Source of the DNA: Chryseobacterium sp. ERMR1:04
GTDB lineage: Bacteria; Bacteroidota; Bacteroidia; Flavobacteriales; Weeksellaceae
DNA: 64,000 nt
Reading direction: 5' to 3'
Assembly: GCF_001297705.1 (NCBI RefSeq)
Contig: NZ_LIRF01000009.1
Location: forward strand, 62,001 to 126,000
Below, one piece after another: positions 3,850-55,470 of this stretch. The notes under the pieces were generated by a model. The model was given only the letters and a program-made list of their open reading frames with translations. It did not search any database and was not told where the DNA came from. Every line of letters begins with the position of its first letter. The first letter of the stretch is position 1. Position numbers and translations under genes: made by a program.

Positions 3850-4983
3850 ATGTCTACAGTTGCAATTATTGAAGTAAAAACCCAAAATGAATTAAAACAA
3901 TTTGTAAGGTTTCCGATGGATTTATATAAAAACAACCCTTATTATGTTCCTTCTTTTATTAAAGATGAATTTAAAATTTGGGATGCTAAAGAAAATCCGG
4001 CTTTAAACTATTCAGAGTCTAAACAATTCTTGGCAACAAAAGACAACAAAGTAGTAGGAAGAATTGCGGTTATCATTAACCATAAGGAAGAGAAAGAATT
4101 AGGGGTAAAAAAAGTCCGTTTTGGATGGATAGATTTTATTGACGACAAGGAAGTTTCGGCAGCTTTGATTCAAAAAGCAATAGACTACGCTAAGGAACAT
4201 AACATCGACAAAATTGAGGGCCCTATGGGTTTCACTAACCTTGACAAGGCGGGAATGCTAACGATGGGCTTTGATAAATTAGCCACCATGATTGGAATCT
4301 ACAATCACGAATATTACCCTAAACATCTTGAAGAACTTGGACTGACAAAAGAAAAAGAATGGGTAGAATTTGAAATGAATTTCCCTAAAATTTTACCTGC
4401 AAAAGTAGAAAAATTCAGTGGTTTAATTGCTCAGAAATACAAGCTTAAAGTCCTTCATTTCAAGTCAAAAGAAGAGATTTTACCATATGTAGAACCCATG
4501 TTTAAATTATTAGATGAAACTTATAAACATCTTTCTACATATACTCCGATTTCTGATGAACAAATCCAGACCTACAGAGAAAAATATTTCCCATTTATTG
4601 ATAAAAACTATGTAATTTGTGTGGTTGATGAAAATCAGGAATTGGTTTCTTTCGCAATCACAATGCCTTCATATTCAAAAGCTTTGCAAAAATCTAAAGG
4701 TAAATTATTTCCATTCGGATGGTGGCATTTTTTACAAGCCAGTAAGAAAAACGACAGAGCTAATTTCTACCTTATCGGAATCCACCCTGAATACCAGAGA
4801 CGTGGCGTAACCGCTATTATTTTCAAAGAAATATTTGTTCGATTTACAAGTATGGGAATTGATTTTGCAGAAACAAACCCAGAATTAGAAGAAAATAAGA
4901 GCGTACAAGTTCTTTGGCAAGATTACAATCCTGTAAATCACAAAAGAAGAAGAACATATTCTTTGAATATAAGTAATGAGTAA
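3850..4983 (+). CDS. double GNAT-fold N-acetyltransferase-like protein
   Basis: The 377-aa protein has the layout of two fused GNAT-type domains. The C-terminal half carries the acetyl-CoA loop in IGIHPEYQRRGVTAIIF (near residue 315), with the R-x-x-G pattern. The N-terminal half has the sequence KVVGRIAVIINH typical of a GNAT beta-4 strand but no clear CoA loop. The substrate is unknown; relatives are abundant in Bacteroidota and sometimes carry misleading names. A heptad repeat array begins inside the last codons (SNE) and supplies the stop codon, so the natural C terminus may have been altered by repeat insertion. Confidence 0.75.
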   Translation: MSTVAIIEVKTQNELKQFVRFPMDLYKNNPYYVPSFIKDEFKIWDAKENPALNYSESKQFLATKDNKVVGRIAVIINHKEEKELGVKKVRFGWIDFIDDKEVSAALIQKAIDYAKEHNIDKIEGPMGFTNLDKAGMLTMGFDKLATMIGIYNHEYYPKHLEELGLTKEKEWVEFEMNFPKILPAKVEKFSGLIAQKYKLKVLHFKSKEEILPYVEPMFKLLDETYKHLSTYTPISDEQIQTYREKYFPFIDKNYVICVVDENQELVSFAITMPSYSKALQKSKGKLFPFGWWHFLQASKKNDRANFYLIGIHPEYQRRGVTAIIFKEIFVRFTSMGIDFAETNPELEENKSVQVLWQDYNPVNHKRRRTYSLNISNE

Positions 4984-5000
4984 TTGGTAATGAGTAATCT
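4973..5000 (+). repeat. heptad array GTAATNN x4, overlaps gene end
   Basis: Four consecutive 7-mers start with GTAAT. Positions 4973-4995 are identical, 23 of 23 bases, to the reverse complement of 54806-54828 beside the four-helix bundle gene. The array contains the stop codon of the acetyltransferase at 4981-4983. A weaker inverted match (11 of 15) at 5050-5064 might be a decayed second arm. Confidence 0.8.
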
Positions 5001-7924: not shown

Positions 7925-7980
7925 GCTTCTGGCGAATGGCACTTAGCCAATAGCCAAAAGCAAATAGCTAAAAGCAAATA
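7925..7980 (+). repeat. heptad array, 8 units starting GC, nuoC-nuoD spacer
   Basis: Eight successive 7-mers each begin with GC, from GCTTCTG to GCTAAAA and GCAAATA, and the array ends 2 nt before the nuoD ATG. The two inner pairs GCCAAAA/GCAAATA and GCTAAAA/GCAAATA give an almost perfect 14-bp direct repeat. Confidence 0.8.
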
Positions 7981-13211: not shown

Positions 13212-13282
13212 AGATTACAGATTTCAGAAACAGATTGAATCTAATTTCTAACTTCTAATATCTAACATCTATAAAAATAAAA
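13212..13282 (+). repeat. heptad array in nuoG-nuoH spacer
   Basis: Three AGA-phased 7-mers (13212-13232) are followed by five CTA-phased ones (CTAATTT, CTAACTT, CTAATAT, CTAACAT, CTATAAA; 13241-13275) and a final AATAAAA that touches the nuoH ATG. The heptad family differs from the GC type but the period is the same. Confidence 0.75.
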
Positions 13283-17716: not shown

Positions 17717-19210
17717 ATGTCTTGTTTATTATTAACATTATTGCTTTTACCTCTAGTAGGATCGGGACTGGTTTTTGCCTGGAAAGATAAATCCAGCAAA
17801 TATTTAGCACTAGGAATTGCATTGGTTCAAATGCTTATTACGTTTTACATCGCTGCGGATTTCGATTTTAATCCTACCGTAGACAGTGTATTACAGCACG
17901 AGATCAATTATCCTTGGTCACAATTTATTAAAAGCTCTCTTCATTTCGGGATAGACGGGATGAGCTTGCTGCTTTTATTATTGACCAACATCTTAACGCC
18001 GATCATCATTTTATCTTCGTTTAATGAAAATGTGAGTTACAAAAACTCTTTCTATGGTTTGATCTTGCTTATGCAGTTCGGATTGGTAGGAGTTTTCACC
18101 TCTTTGGATGGTTTACTGTTCTACATTTTCTGGGAAGTAACTTTGATCCCAATTTGGTTTATTGCCGGACTTTGGGGACAGGAAAATAAAAGATTAGAAT
18201 TCACTACGAAATTCTTTGTCTATACATTCGTTGGATCTTTATTCATGTTGGTAGGATTGATTTATGTTTACAATCATTCCGCATCATTTGCATTAACAGA
18301 TCTATACAATGCTACATTAAACGAAACGCAACAGACTGTGGTCTTCTGGTTTATTTTCTTTGCTTTTGCAGTGAAATTACCGGTATTTCCTTTCCATACT
18401 TGGCAGCCTGATACCTATACCTACTCTCCTACTCAAGGATCGATGTTGTTATCTGGTATTATGCTAAAGATGGCAGTTTATGGAGTTCTTCGTTACTTAT
18501 TACCAATTACTCCAATTCCAATTGCAGGAATTTCAGGACAAATTGTAATCATTCTTGCAATTGTAGGAATTGTTCACGGAGCATTAATTGCAATCATCCA
18601 GACAGATATGAAGAGAATCATTGCATACTCTTCTTTCTCTCACGTTGGATTGATGGTAGCAGGTATCTTTGCTTCTGCAGTAGTTACTTTAAGAGGATCA
18701 TTCAACATTGAAGGTGCCGAAGGAGCTTTAGTACAAACTTTTGCGCACGGTATCAACGTCGTAGGTTTATTCTACTGTTGTGATATTTTATATAAGAGAT
18801 TTAAATCAAGAGACATCAGACAAATGGGAGGTTTAGCGAAAGTGGCGCCGAAGTTTGCCGTATTATTCTTGATCATTGTATTAGGTTCAATGGGAGTTCC
18901 ATTAACCAACGGATTCATCGGAGAATTTATCTTGTTGAAATCTATATATGATTTTAACGGATTAGCAGCAGTAATCGCTGGTCTTACGGTAATTCTTTGT
19001 GCTGTTTACTTATTGAGATTCTACGGAAAAGCAATGTTCGGAGAAGGAAATGATGCCGTATTAAGCACCGCAAAAGATCTATCTGCAGTAGAATTTTCTG
19101 TATTGGCAAGTATCGCAGTTTTTGTGATCTTATTAGGTATTTTCCCTCAACCGGTAATTACAATGGTAAGTAGCTCAGTGAAGTTTATCTACACAGCTAT
19201 GGCTAATTAA
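17717..19210 (+). CDS. nuoM: NADH-quinone oxidoreductase subunit M
   Basis: NuoM is the middle antiporter-like pump subunit. The 497-aa protein has about 14 hydrophobic helices, with the conserved FYIFWEVTLIPIWFIAGLWG around residue 135 and FAVKLPVFPFHTWQPD around 215. Its first residues are unusually cysteine-containing (MSCLLLTLLLLPLVG). A 99-bp spacer separates it from nuoN. Confidence 0.96.
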   Translation: MSCLLLTLLLLPLVGSGLVFAWKDKSSKYLALGIALVQMLITFYIAADFDFNPTVDSVLQHEINYPWSQFIKSSLHFGIDGMSLLLLLLTNILTPIIILSSFNENVSYKNSFYGLILLMQFGLVGVFTSLDGLLFYIFWEVTLIPIWFIAGLWGQENKRLEFTTKFFVYTFVGSLFMLVGLIYVYNHSASFALTDLYNATLNETQQTVVFWFIFFAFAVKLPVFPFHTWQPDTYTYSPTQGSMLLSGIMLKMAVYGVLRYLLPITPIPIAGISGQIVIILAIVGIVHGALIAIIQTDMKRIIAYSSFSHVGLMVAGIFASAVVTLRGSFNIEGAEGALVQTFAHGINVVGLFYCCDILYKRFKSRDIRQMGGLAKVAPKFAVLFLIIVLGSMGVPLTNGFIGEFILLKSIYDFNGLAAVIAGLTVILCAVYLLRFYGKAMFGEGNDAVLSTAKDLSAVEFSVLASIAVFVILLGIFPQPVITMVSSSVKFIYTAMAN

Positions 19211-53933: not shown

Positions 53934-54398
53934 ATGAAAATTGCTGTTTTCCCGGGATCATTTGATCCTATCACTTTAGGACATTACGACATTATTGAAA
54001 GAGCGGCTCCGCTTTTTGATAAATTAATTATTGCCATTGGGCAGAATTCTCAGAAGAAATACATGTTTCCCCTGGAAAAAAGGGTGGAATTTATTCAAAA
54101 TTCTGTTGCCGAATTCCCCAACGTAGAAGTAGATTATTTTGAAGGTCTAACTGTTGACTTTTGTTTTGAGAAAAATGCTCAGTACATTCTTCGAGGATTA
54201 AGAAATCCTGCAGATTTTGAATTTGAAAAAGCCATTGCTCACACCAACAGAACCTTAGCTCATAAAAAATTAGAAACCGTATTTTTATTAACCTCATCAG
54301 GAAAATCATTCATCAGCAGCAGCATCGTGAGAGAAATCATCAACCACGGCGGCGAGTATGAATTATTGGTTCCTGAAGCAGTAAGAGTGAAATTATAA
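53934..54398 (+). CDS. coaD: pantetheine-phosphate adenylyltransferase
   Basis: CoaD makes dephospho-CoA from phosphopantetheine and ATP. The 154-aa protein has the nucleotidyltransferase motif FPGSFDPITLGHYDII, with T-x-G-H, and the late SSSIVREI. Length is typical. Its stop is immediately followed by the heptad array that leads the four-helix bundle gene. Confidence 0.96.
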   Translation: MKIAVFPGSFDPITLGHYDIIERAAPLFDKLIIAIGQNSQKKYMFPLEKRVEFIQNSVAEFPNVEVDYFEGLTVDFCFEKNAQYILRGLRNPADFEFEKAIAHTNRTLAHKKLETVFLLTSSGKSFISSSIVREIINHGGEYELLVPEAVRVKL

Positions 54399-54433
54399 AT
54401 AATGAGTAATTGGTAATACGTAATATTTAATAC
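54399..54433 (+). repeat. heptad array x5, left arm of the four-helix element
   Basis: Five 7-mers with TAAT at positions 2-5 (ATAATGA, GTAATTG, GTAATAC, GTAATAT, TTAATAC) start right after the coaD stop and end one base before the ATG at 54435. The 18-bp stretch TAATGAGTAATTGGTAAT at 54400-54417 recurs inverted at 54810-54827. Confidence 0.85.
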
Positions 54434-54434
54434 G

Positions 54435-54797
54435 ATGGATTTTAATCAACTATTTAGAGACAGAACCAAAAATTTCTCTATTTCCATTATTAAATCATTA
54501 TCATCATTACCTTATTCTGATGCCCTTTCAATCATTAGAAAGCAAATTATAAGGTCTTCCACTTCTGTAGCTGCAAATTATAGAGCAGTTGCAAGAGCCA
54601 GATCTGAAAAAGAAAGATTTGCTAAAATCTGTATTGTTGTTGAGGAAATTGATGAAACTCAACTTTGGTTGGAAATAATTGAGGAACTTGGATATCTAAG
54701 TCCTGAAAATATTTTAAATTTAAAATCAGAATGTGAAGAACTCGTAAAAGTAATGACAACCTATAAATTTAAATTATCACAAAATAAAACGGAATAA
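54435..54797 (+). CDS. four-helix bundle (S23-family) protein
   Basis: The 120-aa protein is of the four-helix bundle / 23S rRNA intervening-sequence protein family, with RSSTSVAANYRAVARARS near residue 40, EEIDETQLWLEII near 70 and a C-terminal helix KVMTTYKFKLS. Family members occur inside 23S rRNA introns or as free genes, and relatives (Avd) act with diversity-generating reverse transcriptases. Here there is no rRNA or reverse transcriptase. Inverted heptad arrays flank the gene closely on both sides, making a compact unit of about 430 bp. Confidence 0.9.
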   Translation: MDFNQLFRDRTKNFSISIIKSLSSLPYSDALSIIRKQIIRSSTSVAANYRAVARARSEKERFAKICIVVEEIDETQLWLEIIEELGYLSPENILNLKSECEELVKVMTTYKFKLSQNKTE

Positions 54798-54803
54798 TTT
54801 ATA

Positions 54804-54831
54804 TCACTCATTACCAATTACTCATTACTCA
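54804..54831 (-). repeat. heptad array x4, right arm of the four-helix element
   Basis: Read in reverse complement, the units repeat the GTAATNN family. Positions 54806-54828 (23 bp) are identical, inverted, to 4973-4995. The array ends 6 nt before the ATG of the TRIC-like gene. Confidence 0.85.
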
Positions 54832-54837
54832 TACTAT

Positions 54838-55470
54838 ATGCACGAACAGTTCAATTTTGCCATAGAAGTACTCGGAACGATTGCCTTTTCAATGTCGGGA
54901 AGTTTTGCAGCGATGCAAAAACGTCTTGATCCGTTTGGGGTACTTATTATTGCCTTCGTAACTTCTGTTGGAGGCGGAACTGTTAGAGATTTATTATTGG
55001 ATATTCCTGTTTTCTGGATGCACGACCTGTTAACCTGTGGCGTTATCATCATTACAAGTATTTTCACAATGATATTTAAATCACTGGAGAAAAACTTTAA
55101 AGTGACTTTATTTATTTTTGACAGCTTCGGATTGGGATTGTTTACCATCATTGGCGTTCAAAAAGGCTTACATGTAGATATCCATCCTTTAATATGTATC
55201 GGATTGGGAACTATTACAGGCTGCTTCGGAGGGATTATTCGGGATATTTTATTGAATAGAATTCCCTTGATCTTTAGAAAAGAAATTTATGCTACCGCTT
55301 GTATTGTCGGTGGTTCAGTGTTTTTATTACTCACAAAATATACTACACTCTCTTATACTTTCATCCAGATTTTCACCATTTTATTAATTGTTGGAATCAG
55401 AACATTAGCCGTAAAATACCATTGGCAAATGCCAAAATTCTATGGATATGATCATAGTTCGGAAATGTAA
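54838..55470 (+). CDS. TRIC/YadS-type cation channel family protein
   Basis: The 210-aa protein of the UPF0126 (YadS) family has two repeats of three helices: the first with AFSMSGSFAAMQKRLDPFGV and VGGGTVRDLLLD, the second with FDSFGLGLFTIIGVQKG and GCFGGIIRDILL. The fold is that of bacterial trimeric intracellular cation channels. Its ATG follows the inverted heptad array, so its original leader may have been replaced. Confidence 0.9.
   Translation: MHEQFNFAIEVLGTIAFSMSGSFAAMQKRLDPFGVLIIAFVTSVGGGTVRDLLLDIPVFWMHDLLTCGVIIITSIFTMIFKSLEKNFKVTLFIFDSFGLGLFTIIGVQKGLHVDIHPLICIGLGTITGCFGGIIRDILLNRIPLIFRKEIYATACIVGGSVFLLLTKYTTLSYTFIQIFTILLIVGIRTLAVKYHWQMPKFYGYDHSSEM

Follow-up and report, generated by a model that had tools for sequence, protein, structure and literature searches.

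Two things usually treated apart, the S23 proteins and scattered arrays of 7-nt units (heptads), appear to belong together as one protein family and its repeat class, a finding larger than the locus at which we came upon it. Mirrored arrays recur beside S23 genes across phyla, with a repeat word that differs by S23 branch, which suggests that protein and heptads form one system. The reading that we favour, with a probability of about 0.6, is an S23–heptad element in which, we infer, S23 pentamers recognise the arrays of their own clade and hairpins spread slowly, often into the loops of other hairpins, in a way resembling RAYTs and REPINs. S23 genes are known mainly from split ribosomal RNA and, although structures of S23/IVP proteins have been solved since 2006, we know of no function for them.

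The locus lies in the window, by which we mean the whole stretch of DNA analysed (64,000 nucleotides), from a host that is probably related to Chryseobacterium and has a genome of 5.53 Mb in 10 contigs (G000). The features on which the analysis bears are these:

4973..4998, plus strand: solo GTAATNN array of the same family as the S23 arms (heptad scoring)
18492..18510, minus strand: solo GTAATNN array (heptad scoring)
53934..54398, plus strand: coaD-like host gene (CTP_transf_like), outside the unit (ORF list and Pfam)
54399..54431, plus strand: left GTAATNN heptad array, abutting the coaD stop at 54398 (heptad scoring)
54435..54797, plus strand, ATG to stop: S23/IVP-family gene of 120 aa, a predicted four-helix bundle (Pfam, NCBIfam, AlphaFold)
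54801..54833, minus strand: right inverted heptad arm, with units scored at 54803–54828 on the minus strand
54838..55470, plus strand: TRIC-type (Gly_transporter) host gene, outside the unit (ORF list and Pfam)

The coaD-like, S23 and TRIC-type genes thus all lie on the plus strand, and the ORF list of the window has no other gene within the S23 unit. ORF, profile and repeat scans confirmed the original prediction of an S23-type gene bracketed by inverted GTAATNN arrays, and the exact 18-base arm that it had named (54400–54417 and 54810–54827) is present. The predicted unit of about 433 bp is real and comes to about 440 bp, but its right end, placed 6 nt before the next ATG (54831), lies 9 nt short of the TRIC-type start codon by heptad scoring (54828). 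The longest inverted pair (54394–54426 and 54801–54833) is 33 nt long and 85% complementary, its halves being 374 nt apart. Four arrays in the window reach a heptad score of at least 10, compared with none in 20 simulated windows (order 1). Other heptad families are represented in the window as well, by arrays of AGCAAAT/AGCCAAA and ATCTAAT/ATCTAAC (7944–7980 and 13239–13271).

Membership of the S23/IVP family is given by two profiles, TIGR02436 (82 bits against an NCBIfam cut-off of 24) and PF05635 (57.5 bits against a Pfam cut-off of 33.8). The AlphaFold model (mean pLDDT 93.6; helices H3–23, H29–53, H58–85 and H90–119) predicts the four-helix bundle of 2rld and 2gsc, with TMq values of 0.76–0.83 to the chains of 2rld. 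These two entries are the nearest folds in the PDB, followed by the Avd structures 4dwl and 8ub7, which share the fold at only 8–10% identity. Avd of diversity-generating retroelements (DGRs) is a pentamer, and the entries 2rld and 2gsc contain five chains each; analogy suggests that the window protein may likewise be a homopentamer. To our knowledge, no catalytic site has been described in the S23 bundle. A search of 50,697 phage records with one query returned no S23 match that would point to a phage origin, and the best PHROG match of the protein has E = 0.19. A role in anti-phage defence was set aside, the window protein having no PADLOC match.

Homologues were found at E ≤ 1e-10 in 109 of 148 genomes of the genus. 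The best matches (L004–L033; 84–100% identity, own copy included; n = 30) belong to clade A, and in all 30 loci the S23 gene lies at the coaD/TRIC site with a plus and a minus GTAAT array (score of at least 6) on opposite sides of it. At a score of 8, 8 of 60 arms lack an array, a shortfall that probably stems mostly from start codons assigned too far upstream; arrays scoring at least 6 are present there. Units are strongly conserved across 52 arms (G.89, T.88, A.97, A 1.0, T 1.0, followed mostly by GA, AA, GG, TG or AG), and the number of units per arm is four in 39, three in 7, five in 5 and seven in 1. Two decayed copies, L065 and L066, are at coaD/TRIC as well. None of the 32 clade-A loci examined is therefore at another site, and the freely moving element that had been envisaged was not borne out. 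Judged by eye among the matches listed, the clade-A gene is intact in 40 genomes and broken or partial in about 27 of 67. Given this fixed site and frequent decay, the copy in the window, which looks old and fixed, behaves like a long-standing resident passed on mostly by vertical descent.

The same spacer can also be seen without the gene. In each of 30 sampled genus genomes that have no clade-A match, coaD and TRIC are separated by 61–117 nt with no S23. Empty junctions of the kind predicted do exist, but they are rarely bare: a strict pattern detects AWTGAT repeats in 25 of the 30, two-sided in 13 and one-sided in 12, and three of these 25 have an additional one-sided GTAAT match. A GTAAT hairpin is present in one spacer of the 30, and four have neither repeat. 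No target-site duplication was clear by eye, either in the coaD/TRIC spacers or at the in-gene insert sites described below.

Beyond clade A, the gene keeps inverted repeats while the word changes. Clade B (L034–L064, n = 31) is 52–63% identical to the window protein and occupies two other sites; by gene names read from sequence, 9 loci are at murE/mraY and 22 are where a peptidase gene ends. The gene is co-directional with its upstream neighbour in 31 of 31. Its flanks carry AWTGATN-type repeats, with an inverted-repeat score of at least 12 in 24 of 31 loci. Six of the seven more distant genes L067–L073 (31–36% identity) have yet other repeats, namely GTTATNA, CAAAGNN-like or TTAATTTGAAAAT-like. 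The prediction that copies keep inverted heptad ends holds in all 30 clade-A loci but not, as far as GTAAT is concerned, in the other two S23 genes of the host genome, which have no adjoining GTAAT arrays; L002 has a different inverted repeat with a score of 16, and that of L001 is weaker, scoring 14. The broader expectation, of heptad ends as a trait of the whole gene family, proved largely right: they recur beside clade-B, distant and cross-phyla S23 genes. Own arms pair only slightly better than swapped partners in clade A (20 of 30 loci) and B2 (14 of 22), and no better in B1 (2 of 9). Arm pairing may therefore not be what is kept, and arm–arm co-adaptation was dropped as main evidence because the signal is too weak.

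The GTAATNN repeats extend well beyond the S23 arms. Three units in a row (GTAATNNGTAATNNGTAAT) have 38 overlapping exact matches across the host genome compared with 2 for the reversed pattern, and 167 compared with 113 when 2 mismatches are allowed, the control being imperfect because a GTAATGA run also contains the backwards word. On the strength of the 38 matches, the S23 arms are two members of a dispersed repeat family and not a private pair. Some genomic copies form close inverted pairs. By eye, GTAAT hairpins and repeats also lie between the tRNA-like genes of a tRNA array (L110 400–2100; G000 C4:651400–653900), some copies being about 240–250 bp apart. At L116, L118, L119 and L123, solo arrays adjoin variants of a common longer repeat (agtatgagtggatagcg and agctcc ... 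aataa), a pattern suggesting that it has a preferred junction with heptads. Two heptad families can be side by side, as GTAAT and CTTCTAG arrays are at L122 and adjacent GTAAT and AWTGAT arrays are in two other genomes (G087 C1:2445907–2446009 and G108 C1:1890405–1890465).

The abundance of each repeat follows the state of its cognate gene. The median number of GTAAT arrays per genome is 23 where clade A is intact (n = 40), 7 where it is decayed (n = 27) and 4 where none is listed (n = 81) (intact versus none listed, P = 4e-10); for AWTGAT arrays and clade B the medians are 23.5 (n = 30), 1.5 (n = 8) and 6 (n = 110), respectively (P = 2e-6). These counts are of overlapping matches, gene status was assigned by eye among the matches listed, and the P values ignore kinship. 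When gene and array were crossed, intact versus none listed gave P = 0.018 and 0.096, and intact versus decayed gave P = 0.016 and 0.027; part of the count signal is therefore shared background.

Free of any motif, the 150 nt before each S23 gene were compared with the 150 nt after it in two sets. The family is present in 114 of 148 phylum-wide genomes, and 70 genes drawn from these, together with L001 and L002, make up the Bacteroidota set (n = 72); one of the two S23 frames of L138 was left out for its short flanks. The cross-phyla set was collected by searching with 2gsc, a Xanthomonas protein of solved structure, and consists of 78 usable loci of the best 80, more being available (L257 and L261 were left out, also for short flanks). 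Inverted-repeat scores of at least 14 occur in 25 of 72 Bacteroidota genes compared with 0.2% of swapped-locus pairings, and in 33 of 78 cross-phyla genes compared with 0.8%. A scan of periods 4–12 on both flanks found period 7 in 32 cross-phyla loci, period 8 in 7 and every other period in 0–1 (n = 78); the corresponding Bacteroidota values are 11, 4 and 0–1 (n = 70). Because the Bacteroidota loci offer only 5 control ORFs, the control is that of the cross-phyla set (n = 163), in which an inverted repeat combined with periodic flanks marks 33 of 78 S23 genes and 2 of 163 control ORFs lying elsewhere in these loci, at a distance from the S23 gene; the other 45 S23 genes lack the combination. 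Among 42 loci with period 7 on both sides, the arrays are more alike as inverted repeats in 33 and as direct repeats in 9 (L238, L240, L242, L243, L276, L278, L302, L142 and L176).

Repeat length and word follow the protein to differing degrees. A quick tree was built from 85 S23 proteins whose period is clear. On it the 15 period-8 rows require 8 changes, compared with a mean of 14 after label shuffling, and none of 500 shuffles went as low. Five genes with 8-nt arrays (L288, L299, L125, L139 and L143) form one tree group, four being from Bacteroidota and one from a Nitrospirae MAG. Motif similarity rises weakly with protein similarity (r = 0.16, 93 loci, 3 of 2,000 permutations), and after control for composition the correlation is r = 0.08 (5 of 2,000 permutations); this run kept 146 of 148 rows, excluding those with runs of N or fewer than 80 aa.

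S23 matches were found in 30 plasmid records, and we examined 15 genes from cyanobacterial plasmids. The inverted-repeat score is at least 22 in 6, among them a Nostoc edaphicum gene with TAGGGAG (31) and a gene of Nostoc sp. C052 with AGGGAAC (29); it is 14–15 in 2 and at most 10 in 7. Several of the seven low-scoring genes have one-sided heptads, and L310 has direct arrays. Three plasmid S23 genes are inside CRISPR clusters (L310, L318 and L319), with the order cas6–S23–cas4 twice and cas10–S23–cmr3 once.

Hairpins without a gene occupy fixed places as well. The spacer between grpE and dnaJ (names read from sequence) has a GTAAT hairpin in 15 of 31 genomes, none of which has AWTGAT there; in the other 16, a strict pattern finds AWTGAT repeats two-sided in 4, one-sided in 8 and not at all in 4. 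By eye, repeats of a third family occupy the middle or loop of the AWTGAT hairpin in three of these spacers (L208, L216 and L218). Across the 15 GTAAT hairpins, both partners vary in 3 of 11 predicted pairs, and GC, UA, CG and AU all occur at one pair. Predicted base pairing of the gene-free hairpins is supported at this one site.

Three solo inverted pairs of the host genome lie in frame inside a multicopy protein gene. We examined 30 members of this gene, two of them from the host genome; 4 have a 9-nt linker where the other 26 have an insert of 39–114 nt. The inserts are in frame, as intact genes require, with a best period of 7 in 23 of 26, and by eye they belong to at least four heptad families (GTAAT, AWTGAT, TTCGGG-like and GTACAAA-like). 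Only 8 of 26 fold better than all 40 of their shuffles. The host genome also has an insert-free copy, seen as two matches that skip residues 164–195 (C3:165736–166749).

For the S23–heptad element we propose the following course. A ring of five subunits would bind single-stranded heptad arrays, perhaps with one 7-nt unit per subunit, as the comparison of a five-fold ring with arrays of four to five units suggests; five units would correspond to the 33 nt of the left array here, most clade-A arms having four. The bound array could be part of a read-through transcript of the upstream gene, or of DNA that has extruded into a hairpin. In this way the protein would mark its own ends, and likewise the gene-free copies that occur at other places in the genome as solo arrays or short hairpins. 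In the course of evolution such hairpins would reach new sites, many of them within the loops of hairpins already there, so that one spacer could change its heptad family; cutting and joining would fall to some host or other enzyme, and the intervening sequences (IVSs) of 23S rRNA would be the ribosomal branch of these elements. Arms that are not clearly co-adapted, together with a near-invariant unit core, fit repeat recognition better than conservation of the stem alone.

The near-invariant core and weak arm pairing would also suit a regulator that is not mobile, in which S23 binds heptads in mRNA and controls its own and other operons through processing, stability or translation, the arrays having arisen by slippage and been kept by selection. 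Such a role would also account for clade-A and clade-B genes lying in spacers after a co-directional gene, for hairpins in the coaD/TRIC and grpE/dnaJ spacers and for a clade-A site fixed in the loci examined, and a translational role was proposed for TAACTGA repeats by MacGregor in 2015 (PMC4679880). We nevertheless regard it as unlikely, if worth serious attention, as it sits poorly with in-frame heptad inserts inside a multicopy protein gene, with changes of heptad family at one site (both coaD/TRIC and grpE/dnaJ) and with the frequent decay of the clade-A gene.

We give still less credence to the minimal DNA transposon of the original prediction, in which the heptad arrays would be terminal repeats cut in trans by a transposase. 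The unit has discrete ends, sites exist with and without it, and the host genome encodes Y1 transposases; the ends, however, differ in unit number and sequence between copies, the site is constant across the 32 clade-A loci, and no target duplication is evident by eye. The Y1 (HuH) transposase profile has nine matches in the genome, eight of them above the cut-off, on contigs C3, C5 and C8. The only RVT_1 match is a large gene on another contig than the S23 unit (G000 C3:1346778; L353) that scores as a DRT of the UG5-nitrilase type. Neither the Y1 matches nor this reverse transcriptase has a visible tie to the S23 unit in the host genome. A DGR partner was set aside, since the only reverse transcriptase found is of the DRT type and no DGR reverse transcriptase lies alongside the gene, as it would for Avd. 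Coincidence, whereby slippage often gives rise to heptads between genes and S23 genes just happen to occupy repeat-rich spacers, is very improbable: heptad arrays are widespread (PMC4692102) and period 7 is present on one or both flanks of 26 of the 163 control ORFs, but the combined signal separates S23 genes from those controls, motifs are clade-specific, array counts track the cognate gene and the period clusters on the S23 protein tree.

As for the S23–heptad element, the gene between its repeats is S23 and not the Y1 transposase of a REPIN/RAYT system. RAYT genes are flanked by inverted short repeats that are also dispersed as gene-free palindromes, and each clade has its own repeat. The two systems are alike in all three respects, a gene between inverted repeats, gene-free dispersed copies and a clade-specific repeat; they differ in that S23 is a four-helix bundle and not a HuH nuclease, and in that its repeat is a tandem heptad array and not a single palindrome. 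Rickettsia palindromic elements are palindromes inserted in frame in protein genes, and the in-gene heptad inserts resemble them in this, although those elements are not heptad arrays; we know of no link between them and S23.

A close match in anatomy is the 23S IVS of Coxiella burnetii, a 428-nt unit with an S23 ORF and complementary ends, in which three tandem heptameric repeats, variable in number among strains, precede the start codon (PMC4990558). Such IVSs replace the tetraloop of 23S helix 9, 25 or 45, and the authors saw no indication that the Coxiella S23 protein is produced in vivo (PMC4990558). In CPR bacteria, rRNA insertions carry a 23S_rRNA_IVP ORF, and most insertions are at the top or base of stem-loops (PMC11270868). 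Among the 80 cross-phyla loci there was no rRNA match in the stretches examined, contigs often breaking at rRNA, so the IVS link comes from one paper (PMC4990558). Like the Coxiella IVS, the window unit has an S23 ORF, in sense orientation to the host transcript, within complementary, heptad-bearing ends; unlike a 23S IVS, it lies between coaD-like and TRIC-type genes, not inside an rRNA gene, and has a different heptad. As its anatomy matches in all but the rRNA location, the window unit is by definition no IVS, but it is built like one.

Dispersed heptads have a literature of their own. Those of Nostoc are named STRRs. Arrays of GGGAATC in Xanthomonas and GGGGA(C/T)T in Nostoc prefer four units and lie between aligned ORFs, with 70 close inverted pairs in Xcc (PMC4692102); they were studied as G-quadruplexes, with no protein partner given (PMC4692102). 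In our set, L228 and L229, Xanthomonas S23 genes with 88 and 86% identity to XCC0516, lie between inverted arrays of the GGGAATC type, and a third Xanthomonas gene (L230) scores only 7. The TAACTGA heptads of Beggiatoaceae are dispersed between genes, almost only as direct repeats, and the S1, Csp and Csr families were put forward as candidate binders (PMC4679880). The arms of one S23 gene (L271) read TCAGTTA, the complement of that word. The word S23 does not occur in the main texts of PMC4692102 and PMC4679880, and the open-access titles and abstract openings examined yielded no link between S23 and dispersed heptads.

We think it possible, at somewhat less than even odds, that S23 genes and the scattered heptads of these lineages (GTAATNN, Xanthomonas GGGAATC, TAACTGA-type and Nostoc) make up one ancient, phylum-spanning class of selfish hairpins, in which pentamers would read a clade-specific code of 7 or 8 nt and hairpins would enter hairpin loops, hence the IVSs in the loops of 23S rRNA. 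The role of IVSs has been called open (PMC4990558), as has that of the Xanthomonas and Nostoc heptads (PMC4692102). If S23 recognises its own heptads, the function of S23, the role of IVSs and these heptads would merge into one testable question. Such recognition would also give short palindromes a second, non-HuH way of spreading through bacterial genomes, and would account for peptide inserts that lie in frame within proteins.
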